From Gloeobacter violaceus PCC 7421 (GTDB lineage Bacteria > Cyanobacteriota > Cyanobacteriia > Gloeobacterales > Gloeobacteraceae), in NCBI RefSeq assembly GCF_000011385.1, contig NC_005125.1, positions 2,294,001-2,358,000 of the forward strand: a stretch of 64,000 nucleotides of DNA. The letters run 5' to 3'. Position 1 is the stretch's first letter. Every line of letters starts with the position of its first letter. A model generated the notes under the pieces. It was not told where the DNA came from, ran no database searches, and saw nothing but the letters and a program-made list of their open reading frames with translations. Below are positions 19,566 to 28,635 of the stretch, piece by piece. Made by a program: the position numbers and the translations under genes.

Positions 19566-20492
19566 TTACTGTCCTTGTGCGCGCAGGTGCCCGACGAGGG
19601 CGCGGGTTTGTTCGGATTGCAGCACGGTCGTGCCGCTCGTCGCCCCGTAGGCGGCGGCCGGATCGGCCAGTTGCGCCACCCGGGTGCTCGTCCCCAGCGA
19701 CGCCTGGCTTTTGAGCCACGCATCGACGTCCTTTTTGTCTTCGACAATCACATCGACGACCATGCCGCCGTGGTAGGCGCCGCACAACTCCGCGCAGCGC
19801 AGCTGGTACTTACCGGCTTTGGTCGGGGTGAAGCTCACCTGGGTCGTGCGTCCGGGAATCACATCCTGCTTGAGGCGAAATTCGGGGACCCAGAAGGCGT
19901 GAATGACGTCGTTGGACTTCATGTCCATCCGGACCGGCCGGCCGATGGGCAAGTGCAACTCGGAGACTTGTGTCTCGCTGCCGGGGTAGCTAAAGATCCA
20001 GGCATACTGCACCGCCTCAACAGCGATGATCAGCGGCGGCGGGGCGGCCGGGTCCGGGTTGGTCGCCTGAAAGCGAATCGGCAGCCCCGAGTCTTCGTGG
20101 TGGGCGCCGCCGCCCATCGGCGAACTGGCACCCATCAGCTGAAAGACCTCGAAGCTGTAGATCGACAGATACAGCACCAGCGCCGTCGGAATCGCCGTCC
20201 AGAGGATCTCCAGGCGCAGGTTGCCGTGCATATTGGGACCGTCGCCCATGTCGTCTTTGGCCCGCTTGAAGACGAAGGCCGAGTACAGCAGCACACCCTG
20301 GACGCCCAGAAAGATTCCGGTGGCGATAATCAGCATAAAGCGGAAAAGACCATCGATTTGCCCGGCTTCTTTAGAAGCTTCCACCGGCATCAGCCAGCCC
20401 ACCGTCTGCCCCGCCCAGACGCTCGCAATCACAATCAGTACAGTGCTGACAACAAGAAGGCTTGTATTGGGGGTGATTCTTGGAATTCTCAC
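19566..20492 (-). CDS. ctaC: Cytochrome c oxidase subunit II
   Basis: Subunit II receives electrons from cytochrome c or plastocyanin-like donors through the CuA centre. The 308-residue protein has two N-terminal helices and a periplasmic cupredoxin domain with His198, Cys233, Glu235, Cys237, His241 and Met244 (CAELCGAYHGGM). The start is a GTG at 20492. The C-terminal tail of about 40 residues is low in conservation. No heme c motif (CxxCH) is attached. Confidence 0.96.
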   Translation of the reverse strand: MRIPRITPNTSLLVVSTVLIVIASVWAGQTVGWLMPVEASKEAGQIDGLFRFMLIIATGIFLGVQGVLLYSAFVFKRAKDDMGDGPNMHGNLRLEILWTAIPTALVLYLSIYSFEVFQLMGASSPMGGGAHHEDSGLPIRFQATNPDPAAPPPLIIAVEAVQYAWIFSYPGSETQVSELHLPIGRPVRMDMKSNDVIHAFWVPEFRLKQDVIPGRTTQVSFTPTKAGKYQLRCAELCGAYHGGMVVDVIVEDKKDVDAWLKSQASLGTSTRVAQLADPAAAYGATSGTTVLQSEQTRALVGHLRAQGQ

Positions 20493-23821: not shown

Positions 23822-24706
23822 ATGGGTAATTCGTTCATTCCGGATAATTCCGCTTCGCTCCCGCTGCGTCAACCGCAGCGCGCCAGGACGGGTTCTTTCG
23901 CCCAGTTTCGCCAGGAGACAATGGCCCTGGCGCGGCGGCTGTTTATCCAGTTGGGGCGGCGACCCTCGGCTTTTGTGGGCAGCATCATCCAGTCGCTTCT
24001 GTGGCTGATGCTGTTCAGTGCCCTGTTTGCCCAGGCCCCCCGGGGCACCTTCGGCATCGAGGGAGGCTACATCCAGTTTCTGGCGGCGGGGATCATCGTC
24101 TTTGCCGCCTTTGGCGGCGCCCTCAACGCCGGGGTGCCCTTAATATTCGACCGCGAATTCGGCTTTCTCAACCGCCTGCTGGTCGCCCCCCTGGTCTCGC
24201 GCACCTCGATCATCTTCGCTTCGGCGCTGTTTATCGTGAGCACGACGCTGGTACAGGCGGCGGCCATCGGCGCGGTGAGCTTTCTGATGGGTGCCCAGTT
24301 CGCAGGCGGCCTCGAAGGGGCGCTCATCGTCGCCCTGGTCGTAACGCTGTTGGTCTTCGGCATCGCTGCATTGAGCCTGGGGCTGGCTTTCGTGCTGCCC
24401 GGCCACATCGAGATGCTGGCGGCCATCTTCGTCATCAACCTGCCGATGATCTTCGCCAGCACCGCCCTGGCACCGATGTCCTTCATGCCCCTATGGCTGC
24501 AGTTAGTGGCAAGCGCCAACCCGCTCACCTACGCCATCGAACCCATCCGGCATCTGTTTTTGCACAGCAACTGGTCGTTGGCCGATCCGGTTTTGCTGGC
24601 CCCCTGGGGTTCGCTGAGCCTGACGGGCTGCGTGCTGGTGCTGTTGGTCTTCGATGTGGTTGCCATCGCGCTGGTGGGCGGCATGCTCAAGCGGAAACTC
24701 GGTTAA
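23822..24706 (+). CDS. ABC-2 type transporter permease (Ycf38-like)
   Basis: A 294-residue permease with six helices, the usual ABC-2 fold. The conserved pieces QSLLWLMLFSALF, FDREFGFLNRLLVAPL and PLTYAIEPIRHLF resemble algal/cyanobacterial Ycf38. It is the membrane partner of the preceding ATPase. Its TAA stop shares bases with the stop of the convergent gene (ttaa at 24703-24706). Exported compound unknown. Confidence 0.9.
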   Translation: MGNSFIPDNSASLPLRQPQRARTGSFAQFRQETMALARRLFIQLGRRPSAFVGSIIQSLLWLMLFSALFAQAPRGTFGIEGGYIQFLAAGIIVFAAFGGALNAGVPLIFDREFGFLNRLLVAPLVSRTSIIFASALFIVSTTLVQAAAIGAVSFLMGAQFAGGLEGALIVALVVTLLVFGIAALSLGLAFVLPGHIEMLAAIFVINLPMIFASTALAPMSFMPLWLQLVASANPLTYAIEPIRHLFLHSNWSLADPVLLAPWGSLSLTGCVLVLLVFDVVAIALVGGMLKRKLG

Positions 24707-25401
24707 ACCCTGTCGTCGCCGATTAGACCGCCGATGCGCTTGAGGATGCGCAGCACGTCGTACAGCTCGTTGCGCCCATAGGAAAACAGCGAAAAATCTT
24801 CAGAAAGGTTGTACTGTGACTCAGGAGTTCTAACCAGTTTTAGAAATCGAAAACCGTCGCCATTGGTGACCAGTCCGTATACCGCCCGCTGTGATTCGGG
24901 GGCACCCATCATATAGGCAAGTGCCTGGGGAACGGCTGCTTGAAAGTTGAAGCGCGTTTGCTTGGATTCGACTAGCAACAGCCAGAAACGATTGCGGATC
25001 ACGAGTGTATCGATGCGTCCGCGATAAATCCGCTGCTCCTCCTCGACGGTGATTGCCACCGTCAGCTCCGAACGAAGCTTAAAGGGTGGATAGAAAAATC
25101 CGGCCAACTGCAACAGCGGAGAAATTAACAGCAAATTGACCGTACTTTCGGTCAGCATATAACCATCGGACTGGTAGAGGTAGGTTTCTTTGAGGCTGTC
25201 GAGGGTCCGCCGTTCGCCGTCGGTCAGTTCCGGCAGCGAACGGGTCCATTCCGGGAAGAAGTCGGCGACAACGTTTCTGCGTAGGCGGAACTGCTCTTCC
25301 ACCGCGGCGACGCTCGCGAATGCTTCGGCGGTAGCGACGGTTTCCAATGGTTGCTCTCCCGGAACGGTTGTACCGCCGGTGGGGCGGGCCTGAGCGATCA
25401 T
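24703..25401 (-). CDS. PD-(D/E)XK-like nuclease family protein (restriction subunit R N-terminal-like)
   Basis: A 232-residue protein of a group common in cyanobacteria and often annotated as 'type I restriction enzyme R protein N terminal'. The probable active site is in GRIDTLVIRNRF followed by VESKQTRF, the D…ExK pattern of PD-(D/E)XK nucleases. A Tyr/Leu-rich central part (FYPPFKLRSE) precedes it. The ATG at 25401 is preferred over a TTG at 25467. No methylase or specificity gene is nearby, so it is not a complete restriction system. Cellular role unknown. Confidence 0.75.
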   Translation of the reverse strand: MIAQARPTGGTTVPGEQPLETVATAEAFASVAAVEEQFRLRRNVVADFFPEWTRSLPELTDGERRTLDSLKETYLYQSDGYMLTESTVNLLLISPLLQLAGFFYPPFKLRSELTVAITVEEEQRIYRGRIDTLVIRNRFWLLLVESKQTRFNFQAAVPQALAYMMGAPESQRAVYGLVTNGDGFRFLKLVRTPESQYNLSEDFSLFSYGRNELYDVLRILKRIGGLIGDDRV

Positions 25402-25718
25402 TGTAGTGACTCTGGCCTTAGAAAGCCCAATCTGCCACGGCCACCTCCTATTGAGGCTGTGTCCCAATCAGTCTGGCTACCGCTATAAGTGTTGTTGCCG
25501 ACGGGGCAATGCGCGGACACAACGGAGCCTTGCATTGCATAATTTACTGTAGGTCTCCCCTATATTAGGGAGGCGCTTGTCGCATCCAGGTTCCGATGCA
25601 AACCTGCTCCAAATCCATGGGCAGCGAGCAACCAGTTCATTTTTCTTTCATAAGTTCAGTTCACTAAATACGGTAAACGACATTGCCGGGGTAAGCCGTT
25701 TGCTTTCGGGGTTTACGT
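25402..25718. other. Intergenic region with small dyads
   Basis: About 315 bp between divergent genes. It holds a short palindrome ccctatattaggg around 25556-25570 and a gcatc…gatgc hairpin near 25579-25600. No gene, tRNA or recognised riboswitch is seen. Promoters for both flanking genes must lie here, but no clear -35/-10 pair stands out. Confidence 0.4.
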
Positions 25719-26294
25719 ATGCAAAAAATGGTTCACAACGCGCTCGTCGACAGGCCCGGGACACGATGGCAAGGTTTTGCCGTCTTTGCCGGGATTTTCG
25801 GATTACTTTGCTTGCTTTTGATGGCCGTTCCGGCTATCGACGCCGATCGGTGGCTACAGGCCAAAATCGAGCTAAAAAATGCTGATGGCCTCCCTGTAGG
25901 CAATGCGTCATTGACCCAGCTGAGCGATGGGGTGCGGGTATCGGTCCAAGTGCAGGGCTTGCTGCCCGGCAAATACCCGATTCACTTTCACTCGAAGGGA
26001 AAATGCGTTGCACCGGATTTCAGGTCTTCGCGGGGTGTATTTGACACCCACTCCCTTGGACACAAAACCCGTCCGGACGGCCAACCCGTTCCTCCCGCCG
26101 GTTTGCTGCCTGCTCTGATAGTTGGAGCGGCCGGTACCGGCGAGTTGAACGCCCTGAATACGGACGTGACCCTGCGGGCCCACAAGTTGCATTCTTTGCT
26201 CAGACCCGGAGGTTCTGCACTGGTCATCCATGCAGCGCACTCCAGACAGATCATCGCCTGCGGAGCGGTCACCAGAACACCCGTTTCCGATTGA
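25719..26294 (+). CDS. SodC-like (Cu/Zn superoxide dismutase fold) protein with degenerate metal site
   Basis: A 191-residue protein with an N-terminal membrane anchor or signal (FAVFAGIFGLLCLLLMAVPA). It keeps the SodC framework: PIHFHSKGKC (His89 and His91, matching Cu ligands His46/His48), VIHAAH (His171, matching His120), and the disulfide cysteines Cys96 and Cys181. The bridging His63 position is Val107, and the Zn ligands His80 and Asp83 are replaced (PAGLLP, Pro126 and Leu129). So a Zn site is not expected, and catalysis is doubtful. It lies 43 bp upstream of the copper-radical oxidase-like gene and is probably in its operon. Confidence 0.75.
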   Translation: MQKMVHNALVDRPGTRWQGFAVFAGIFGLLCLLLMAVPAIDADRWLQAKIELKNADGLPVGNASLTQLSDGVRVSVQVQGLLPGKYPIHFHSKGKCVAPDFRSSRGVFDTHSLGHKTRPDGQPVPPAGLLPALIVGAAGTGELNALNTDVTLRAHKLHSLLRPGGSALVIHAAHSRQIIACGAVTRTPVSD

Positions 26295-26337
26295 ACCCCA
26301 CCTTCCTGTTTGCCCTTTCTTTTTGTGAGGTACCCCC

Positions 26338-28587
26338 ATGCCGAAGTTTAAAGCGACGCGCCTGCTACGCCGCCGTCAGTTGTTGAAACTGGCCGTATTT
26401 ACAGGGGTCGGCAGTGCCCTGTACTTTGTCGCCGACCGCCAACGCGCCACCTTTGCCCAAGAAGACACCCAGGGACTCTGGCAAGTCCTGCCGTTCGATT
26501 CTCAAATTTTGGCGGTCCACGCTGCTCTGCTACGCACGGGCAAGGTTTTGTTCGTCGCCGGTTCGAGCAACGACGAAACGAATATCCCGTTTGAACACGG
26601 CAGCGTCGTTCTAGATATCAATGCCCCGGACGGTAATCCCGTGTTCCCGGCGGACCTGCTCAACAGCCAGGGCAAGCAAATCGACCTGTTCTGCTGTGCC
26701 CACGCGGCCCTCGCCGACGGCCGCATCCTGTTTGGGGGAGGCACCAAGCAATACGACCCGTTCTACGGCATCAACGAGGCGATTACTTTTGATCCGCAGA
26801 CCCAAAAATGGACCAAGGTCAATTCGATGGCGATCGGCCGCTGGTACCCGACCTACACGACCCTCGGCGACGGACGGGTTTTGGCCGTGTCGGGTTTCGA
26901 CGGCGGCGGCAAATACACCCTGGTTCCGGAAATTTTCTCAACCGCTACGGGCAATTGGTCCTCCCTGGCCAAAACCGCCAAGACCTGGCCGCTGTATGCC
27001 CATCTGTACTTGTTGCGCGACGGCAGAATTTTCTATGCGGGCGGCTACTACGGCAGTTACGTCGCAAACCAGAACACCCTGCCCCCGACGCTGTGGAACA
27101 TGACGACCAACGCCACCACGACCGTCGGCGGCCTCACCAGTACGACCCTGCGCAGCCAGGCGGCCAGTGTTCTGCTGCCCCCCGCCCAAGATCAAAAAGT
27201 CCTGCTCATCGGCGGTGGCCCGGCCACCGGGACAGGTTCGGCCACCCGCGACGTCAACATCGTGAATTTGGCCGTGAGCAGCCCGGTTTATACGAAAGTC
27301 GCCTCGCTCAACTTCGCCCGCCTGCACCATAGTGCCGTGCTGCTGCCGGACCGGACAGTGCTGGTCTGCGGTGGGAGCGGCGCCGATGAAGATGCCGCCA
27401 AAGCGGCCTTGCAGGCAGAAATTTACGACCCGGTCGCCAATACCTGGAAAGTGGCGGCTACCGCCACCGTTGCCCGCCTGTACCACTCCATCGCGCTGCT
27501 GTTGCCGGACGGCAGGGTGATCACCGCCGGTTCGAATCCCGAACGGGAGGTGGAGGAGTTGCGCCTGGAGGTCTTCAGTCCTCCCTATCTGTTTCGCGGG
27601 CCGCGGCCGGTGATCGAGAGCGTTGCGCAGTCGTGGAACTACGGCAACGCCGTGGAGATCAAGACGCCGCAGGCAACCGACATCCGGTGGATCAGCCTCA
27701 TTCGCCCGGGAACGCCTACCCACGCTTTTGACATGGACCAAAGGCTGGTGGATGTGCCGTTTACCCTCAATACCAGCGGCGGCCTGACGGCGACGATTCC
27801 GAGTGAACCGAACCTGGCACCGCCCGGCTGGTACATGCTTTTTATCACTGACAACGACAAAGTGCCCTCGGTGGCAGCTTGGGTGCAGCTGAAGCCTTCT
27901 ACTTCCCCTACCACCTTCAGCCTGCAGTCGAGTACTTCGCCCGGCCGCAGCGGCCCGACCCCCCTGCAGGGCAAGACCGTCAGCGGCAACCTCTACGTAT
28001 TTCTCACCCCCGAAAGCGGCGTCACCCAGGTGCGCTTCTTCCTGGACAACCCGTCCGGCAGCGGCACGCCGACCCAGGTGGAAAATACCGCCCCCTACGA
28101 CTTCAAAGGCGGCAGTGCGACCCAGGCCAACCCCTTCGACACCAAGACGATCAGCGACGGACAGCACACGATAACCGCTTCGATCAGTCTCTCTGCCGGC
28201 GGAACGCAAACCGTCAGCTCCACCTTCACCGTCGCCAACAGCGGACCGCCCCCGAGCACCTTCAGCCTGCAGTCGAGTACTTCGCCCGGCCGCAGCGGCC
28301 CGACCCCCCTGCAGGGCAAGACCGTCAGCGGCAACCTCTACGTATTTCTCACCCCCGAAAGCGGCGTCACCCAGGTGCGCTTCTTCCTGGACAACCCGTC
28401 CGGCAGCGGCACGCCGACCCAGGTGGAAACCGTCGCTCCCTTTGACTTCAAAGGCGGGACCACGACCGCGGCCAGACCCTTCGACACCAAAACGGTCAGC
28501 AACGGCTCCCACACCATCACCGCTTCGGTGACGCTCAGCAGCGGCACGATCCAGACAACCAGCGCGACTTTCACCGTCGCCAACTAA
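26338..28587 (+). CDS. Tat-exported galactose/glyoxal oxidase-like copper-radical protein with two C-terminal repeat domains
   Basis: A 749-residue protein. Residues 1-40 are a twin-arginine signal (RRRQLLKLAVFTG). A kelch propeller follows (about 45-390), then a DUF1929/E-set domain (about 415-518), then two 115-residue repeats (from about 525 and 640). All copper-radical residues can be placed by motif: Cys119 or 120 in FCCAH, Tyr170 in GRWYPT, Tyr382/His383 in LYHSIALLLPDGR, His462 in THAFDMDQR. It should oxidise an alcohol or aldehyde with release of H2O2 outside the cytoplasm. The ribosome-binding site is gtgaggt. Substrate unknown. Confidence 0.88.
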   Translation: MPKFKATRLLRRRQLLKLAVFTGVGSALYFVADRQRATFAQEDTQGLWQVLPFDSQILAVHAALLRTGKVLFVAGSSNDETNIPFEHGSVVLDINAPDGNPVFPADLLNSQGKQIDLFCCAHAALADGRILFGGGTKQYDPFYGINEAITFDPQTQKWTKVNSMAIGRWYPTYTTLGDGRVLAVSGFDGGGKYTLVPEIFSTATGNWSSLAKTAKTWPLYAHLYLLRDGRIFYAGGYYGSYVANQNTLPPTLWNMTTNATTTVGGLTSTTLRSQAASVLLPPAQDQKVLLIGGGPATGTGSATRDVNIVNLAVSSPVYTKVASLNFARLHHSAVLLPDRTVLVCGGSGADEDAAKAALQAEIYDPVANTWKVAATATVARLYHSIALLLPDGRVITAGSNPEREVEELRLEVFSPPYLFRGPRPVIESVAQSWNYGNAVEIKTPQATDIRWISLIRPGTPTHAFDMDQRLVDVPFTLNTSGGLTATIPSEPNLAPPGWYMLFITDNDKVPSVAAWVQLKPSTSPTTFSLQSSTSPGRSGPTPLQGKTVSGNLYVFLTPESGVTQVRFFLDNPSGSGTPTQVENTAPYDFKGGSATQANPFDTKTISDGQHTITASISLSAGGTQTVSSTFTVANSGPPPSTFSLQSSTSPGRSGPTPLQGKTVSGNLYVFLTPESGVTQVRFFLDNPSGSGTPTQVETVAPFDFKGGTTTAARPFDTKTVSNGSHTITASVTLSSGTIQTTSATFTVAN
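27912..28429 (+). repeat. Perfect 173-bp direct repeat within the oxidase gene
   Basis: Bases 27912-28084 and 28257-28429 are identical, with a period of 345 bp (115 codons). The following parts of each unit differ by many bases. The two units encode paired Ig-like/surface domains. Identity confined to half of the unit points to gene conversion or a recent exchange rather than a fresh duplication of the whole unit. Confidence 0.92.
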
Positions 28588-28602: not shown

Positions 28603-28635
28603 ACCGCCCGGGCTGAAACTTTCAGCCCGGGCGGT
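28603..28635. terminator. Long inverted repeat between convergent genes
   Basis: accgcccgggctgaaa and its exact complement flank a single base, giving a stem of at least 13 bp. It lies 15 bp after the oxidase stop and 24 bp before the stop of the next minus-strand gene. No T-run follows on either side, so termination (perhaps in both directions) is likely but not typical. Confidence 0.6.

Follow-up and report, generated by a model that had tools for sequence, protein, structure and literature searches.

Bacterial periplasmic SodC proteins (PF00080) combine the superoxide dismutase (SOD) fold and a disulfide with a copper site of four histidines, one of which (H63) bridges to the zinc site (H63, H71, H80, D83), together with Arg143, an electrostatic loop, and an N-terminal export or anchor segment. 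In reduced SOD1, Cu(I) is held by exactly H46, H48, and H120 once the bridging histidine lets go. Bacillus subtilis YojM (1s4i) has the SOD fold with an incomplete metal site, in which the Cu ligands are lost and the Zn site is kept. In eukaryotes, the SOD-like fold also serves copper delivery, in CCS. The Cu-only SODs and CSRP of fungi and animals are extracytoplasmic, have no Zn site and a short loop VII, and keep four Cu histidines, often with a Glu/Asp pair; in the fungal enzymes, the Cu site is intact and the pair is present (PMC13017621). A 2026 review places such open-site Cu-only SODs in fungi, oomycetes, and animals only (PMC13017621). Among copper-radical oxidases (CROs), maturation of Streptomyces lividans GlxA under low copper requires Sco, ECuC, and DtpA: loss of Sco or of DtpA leaves the enzyme immature, and loss of ECuC leaves it mostly so (PMC4736821).

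Here, we describe a locus of Gloeobacter violaceus PCC 7421 (genome of 4,659,019 bp, one contig) in which a SodC-like protein and a GlxA-like CRO are encoded side by side. The window, a stretch of 64,000 nucleotides, includes the genes for the SodC-like protein P0001 (191 aa; 25719..26294) and the oxidase P0002 (749 aa; 26338..28587), both on the + strand, as are all features within and between them, and separated by 43 bp; an earlier note on this DNA had given these coordinates, the gap, and the residue numbers exactly. Two SodC-like proteins of PCC 7421 with lengths of 191 and 233 aa, NP_925116 and NP_924927, were found in a 2007 paper to lack both Cu/Zn SOD signatures and were left unassigned (PMC2234264), and the non-canonical status of P0001 is thus already on record. 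In G. violaceus CCALA 979, no active Cu/Zn SOD was found (PMC9692673). Our literature search returned nothing on P0002 or on the P0001-P0002 pair, including under Gloeobacter galactose oxidase.

The layout suggests a transcription unit. The 5′ neighbor of P0001 is an HSDR_N-like gene on the opposite strand (24703-25467; 24.8 bits in Pfam, just under the cut-off of 25.1). A Shine-Dalgarno-like GAGGT (26327..26331) lies six bases 5′ of the CRO start, and there is no convincing terminator between the two genes, with promoter and terminator scans at chance level. Beyond the CRO stop, an inverted repeat (28603..28635; fold z-score -5.7), its 15-bp arms near-perfect and its loop of 3 bases, resembles a terminator but lacks a T-run, and the genes 3′ of it run on the opposite strand. 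We infer that the two genes are co-transcribed and probably form an operon.

P0001 is clearly predicted to adopt the SOD fold. It matches the Pfam Sod_Cu profile (9.3e-16; 58.9 bits vs. a cut-off of 28.9), and its AlphaFold2 model (pLDDT 85.5 from an input alignment of 31 sequences) superposes on Deinococcus SodC 9m58 with a Z of 20.1 and an rmsd of 1.4 over 119 residues. Other fold matches include M. tuberculosis SodC and YojM (Z 19.5), which is among the closest solved structures although its metal site is depleted in the opposite way. A predicted hydrophobic N-terminal helix (aa 18-34; 25770..25820) may be a signal peptide or membrane anchor, as in bacterial SodC.

The metal site of P0001 was read from an alignment of 33 SodC-like sequences. 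As the earlier note had claimed, three Cu histidines and the disulfide are kept: His89 and His91 (25983..25991) correspond to H46 and H48, His171 (26229..26231) to H120, and Cys96 and Cys181 to C57 and C146. The bridging histidine and two Zn ligands are indeed lost, with Val107 (26037..26039) in place of H63 and, in the segment from Pro126 to Leu129 (26094..26105), Pro for H80 and Leu for D83. The H71 equivalent, His115, is probably kept, which leaves at most one Zn ligand. To these we add two losses: the catalytic Arg143 is replaced by Ile178, and the electrostatic loop that ends there (H120 to R143; 26232..26252) has 6 residues vs. 16-19, with ten residues gone. H63, D83, and Arg143 are kept in all 33 aligned sequences except P0001 and its orthologue in the Gloeobacter genome G390. 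We rejected the possibility that another alignment would restore the ligands, as V107 and L129 come out at these positions in a phmmer alignment to YojM and in each of two separately built MAFFT alignments; neither sequence nor profile comparison brings the missing Zn and Cu ligands back.

Compared with Cu/Zn SOD, P0001 therefore has neither the four-histidine Cu site, nor the Zn site (except possibly His115), nor Arg143 and a full electrostatic loop. It resembles the fungal Cu-only type in its absent Zn site and abbreviated loop VII but departs from it in the Cu site and in the E110/D113 pair, since Val107, Pro126, and Leu129 stand at these positions. Because H46, H48, and H120 are the Cu(I) ligands of reduced SOD1, the pattern would be that of a Cu(I)-type site kept while the parts needed for SOD catalysis were lost; judged from these residues, SOD catalysis by P0001 is unlikely.

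The oxidase retains a complete active site. Its closest solved structure is S. lividans GlxA 4unm (1.4e-86), and Pfam assigns a kelch propeller, an E-set domain (GO-like_E_set), and two Ig-like repeats (Big_7). Aligned with GlxA and galactose oxidase, all active-site residues are kept, which bears out the Cys/Tyr/His copper-radical set reported earlier: Cys119 (26692..26694; GlxA FC motif), the cross-link cysteine of the Tyr-Cys cofactor; Trp169-Tyr170 (26842..26847; GlxA RWYPT), the stacking Trp and the cross-linked Tyr; Tyr382-His383 (27481..27486), the axial Tyr and a Cu histidine; and His462 (27721..27723), the second Cu histidine. P0002 scores 391.4 bits against the NCBIfam GlxA equivalog cut-off of 800 and is therefore a relative of GlxA, not a proven orthologue. 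Unlike GlxA, it has C-terminal Ig-like repeats and a Tat-type leader; the twin-arginine motif LRRRQLLK (26365..26388) is consistent with the Tat export proposed in the earlier note. The near-identical Big_7 repeats (27916-28239 and 28249-28584) match each other across PCC 7421 (G000) and G390.

We compared the locus with those of three other Gloeobacter genomes (G388, G389, and G390). In G390, the pair is intact, with a P0001 orthologue of 96% identity and a gap of 44 bp, the intergenic region being conserved but for one inserted base. The P0001 genes of PCC 7421 and G390 differ at 17 sites (8 nonsynonymous and 9 synonymous), giving a dN/dS of about 0.30 (binomial p = 0.015 vs. neutrality, from 17 substitutions in one genome pair), while that of the CRO core is 0.11. 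Both genes are under purifying selection, in the case of P0001 as read from 17 substitutions. Since G390 preserves the reading frame with this dN/dS, P0001 is not a product of chance or decay. In G389, one deletion removed the sequence from 24929 to about 28433 of the window, taking the P0001 gene and most of the CRO gene, and at the junction (L075 1504-1512) the truncated HSDR_N-like gene is fused to the CRO 3′ remnant. We considered whether the pair was instead an island that G389 never acquired, and rejected this because the CRO 3′ end remains there. G388 yielded neither a CRO nor a close P0001 orthologue; the SodC-like protein that comes nearest there shares 44% identity with P0001 and keeps H63, D83, and Arg143.

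Conservation of the gene pair elsewhere, whose lack the earlier note would have counted against its reading, comes close to being absent. In a sample of 386 genomes of the phylum, 7 have a strong CRO match, PCC 7421 included. With a SodC profile, hmmsearch found no SodC neighbor at the 14 CRO loci examined outside Gloeobacter (three with only 1.5-kb flanks) or at the two second-CRO loci within Gloeobacter. The pair is thus seen only in PCC 7421 and G390, two near-identical genomes, so that conservation gives it weak support and the pairing is a Gloeobacter feature. The closest cyanobacterial orthologues of P0002, at about 50% identity, are those that we label Nostocales (two sit on Nostoc plasmids). 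These CROs (L067-L071, L086, and L087) have no leader in their open frames, and the product of the different gene 3′ of them starts with a Tat-like leader; at L067, this product has no Pfam match. It could accompany the oxidase as a partner in Tat co-export.

Two proteobacterial CROs have a copper carrier gene as neighbor. A Sco/SenC gene directly follows the CRO on a Burkholderia ambifaria plasmid (L090 3678-7027; Pfam 100 bits) and in another proteobacterial genome, G492 (L093 917-3666; Pfam 135 bits), which indicates that some CROs come with a copper carrier beside them. Neither Sco nor PCuAC was matched in nine Gloeobacterales genomes, in which positive controls were detected. Sco is absent also from six other CRO-bearing cyanobacteria that have no SodC neighbor; therefore, its absence alone demands no substitute. 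As a separate observation in this order without Sco or PCuAC matches, the window encodes an apparent CuA-type cytochrome oxidase subunit (19566-20492).

Our leading reading, held tentatively and by analogy, is that P0001 uses its SOD fold to carry Cu(I) for maturation of the neighboring oxidase. The two genes would form a small operon with both products acting outside the cytoplasm, where P0002 would require copper to form its Tyr-Cys cofactor. P0001, presumably no longer a dismutase, would have only three Cu(I)-holding histidines left, in an opened site; most likely it would bind Cu(I) in the envelope and pass it to P0002, although we infer both the binding and the direct transfer. It would fill the role held by Sco beside proteobacterial CROs, from a position upstream instead of downstream. 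Sco/SenC is like P0001 in this proposed role but has a thioredoxin fold and an unrelated sequence, and unlike CCS, P0001 has neither an ATX1-like domain nor a CXC tail, so that copper would sit in a SOD-type histidine site.

Several observations point toward such a carrier: H46, H48, H120, and the disulfide are kept while H63, H80, D83, Arg143, and loop VII are lost, on a SOD fold predicted at high confidence; the 43-44 bp gap, the Shine-Dalgarno motif, and the lack of a convincing intervening terminator are kept in G390; and both genes are under purifying selection and were lost together in G389. The need of GlxA maturation for Sco, ECuC, and DtpA under low copper (PMC4736821), the Sco genes 3′ of two proteobacterial CROs, and the lack of Sco and PCuAC matches in Gloeobacterales argue in the same direction. 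Against this, and as the main weakness, the pair is confined to two near-identical genomes, with a SodC neighbor at none of the 14 outside loci; CRO-bearing Nostocales without Sco evidently manage without a SodC-like partner; the double loss in G389 was a single event and could be chance; and the selection signal on P0001 comes from 17 substitutions, with its Cu binding deduced from residues. A copper chaperone supplying the oxidase, as suggested in the earlier note, stands as a possible role that draws on GlxA and Sco by analogy and on a pair found in two genomes.

A strong rival is that the adjacency is incidental, and that P0001 is a Gloeobacter-specific diverged envelope SodC with a general copper-buffering or a non-metal structural task. 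We regard this as possible, if on the doubtful side. The restriction of the pair to PCC 7421 and G390, the differing neighbors at other CRO loci, and the weak grouping (90/91) of P0001 with Gloeobacter paralogues that likewise have a short loop, and with a single cyanobacterial SodC, would all fit, as would the second CRO of G. violaceus, which stands without a SodC-like gene and also counts against the carrier reading. Incidental adjacency accounts less well for the same-strand order, gap, and Shine-Dalgarno motif kept in both genomes, for the prediction that both proteins are extracytoplasmic copper proteins, and for their co-loss in G389. The second CRO (L066 7615-9912; G000:C1 ~4471614-4473911) is 38% identical to P0002, has a different repetitive C-terminus, and adjoins a transporter-like gene.

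Two further explanations are improbable. P0001 might be a slow copper-only SOD or a superoxide modulator, shielding the oxidase or adjusting the redox state of its radical; it still has three Cu ligands and the disulfide, and open-site Cu-only SODs that lack loop VII can reach high rates (PMC13017621). The earlier suggestion of a copper-only SOD is nonetheless poorly supported, as P0001 has lost, besides the Zn ligands, His63, Arg143, the electrostatic loop, and the Asp from the residue pair that marks Cu-only SODs, and extracts of G. violaceus CCALA 979 show no Cu/Zn SOD activity, perhaps for reasons of expression or method (PMC9692673). Alternatively, and with equally little likelihood, P0001 would be metal-free in vivo, and its SOD barrel would partner the secreted propeller oxidase in docking or folding, comparable to the recognition of SOD1 by CCS domain II. 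SOD-like domains without a Cu site do serve as recognition modules (CCS; PMC13017621), a Deinococcus protein joins a SodC domain to a beta-propeller (PMC12362111), and P0001 has several active-site losses; however, most other site residues changed, yet all three histidines and the disulfide stayed, a pattern that drift would not favor. For a linked superoxide/peroxide chemistry, also raised in the earlier note, nothing positive speaks.

The carrier reading also raises the question of origin. Four Gloeobacter SodC paralogues (L002, L029, L031, and L034), of which L002 lies at 1465-2091 of its locus (G000:C1 ~2129326-2129952), have an electrostatic loop of 7 aa and keep H46, H48, H63, H120, D83, and Arg143; L002 and L029 are nearer to the Cu-only SOD type than P0001, which has lost His63, both residues of the Glu/Asp pair, and Arg143. 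We consider the four, which come close to that architecture, to be candidate bacterial open-site Cu-only SODs. We do not assign them the Glu/Asp hallmark because the H80 position is ambiguous, with a Met three residues ahead of the Asp and, in L002, a His-rich insert. Fungal SOD5 is not among the 60 PDB matches listed for this group, nor among the listed fold matches, which excludes nothing. Descent of P0001 from a short-loop open-site SOD is plausible, though not proven, because its grouping with these paralogues (90/91) is weak and the open fork also holds the full-loop SodC L004. It is a rather unlikely proposal that, from open-site Cu-only-type SODs in Gloeobacter, a bacterial SOD barrel lost loop VII, the Zn site, the bridging histidine, and the catalytic arginine and so became a Cu(I) chaperone dedicated to a GlxA-like radical oxidase, the lineage having no Sco. 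If so, the SOD scaffold would have been turned to copper delivery in bacteria too, besides the eukaryotic CCS, with a bearing on how CROs outside Streptomyces obtain copper. The short-loop paralogues could themselves test an independent rise of open-site Cu-only SODs in bacteria; three of the four, L002 included, carry a His-rich insert.
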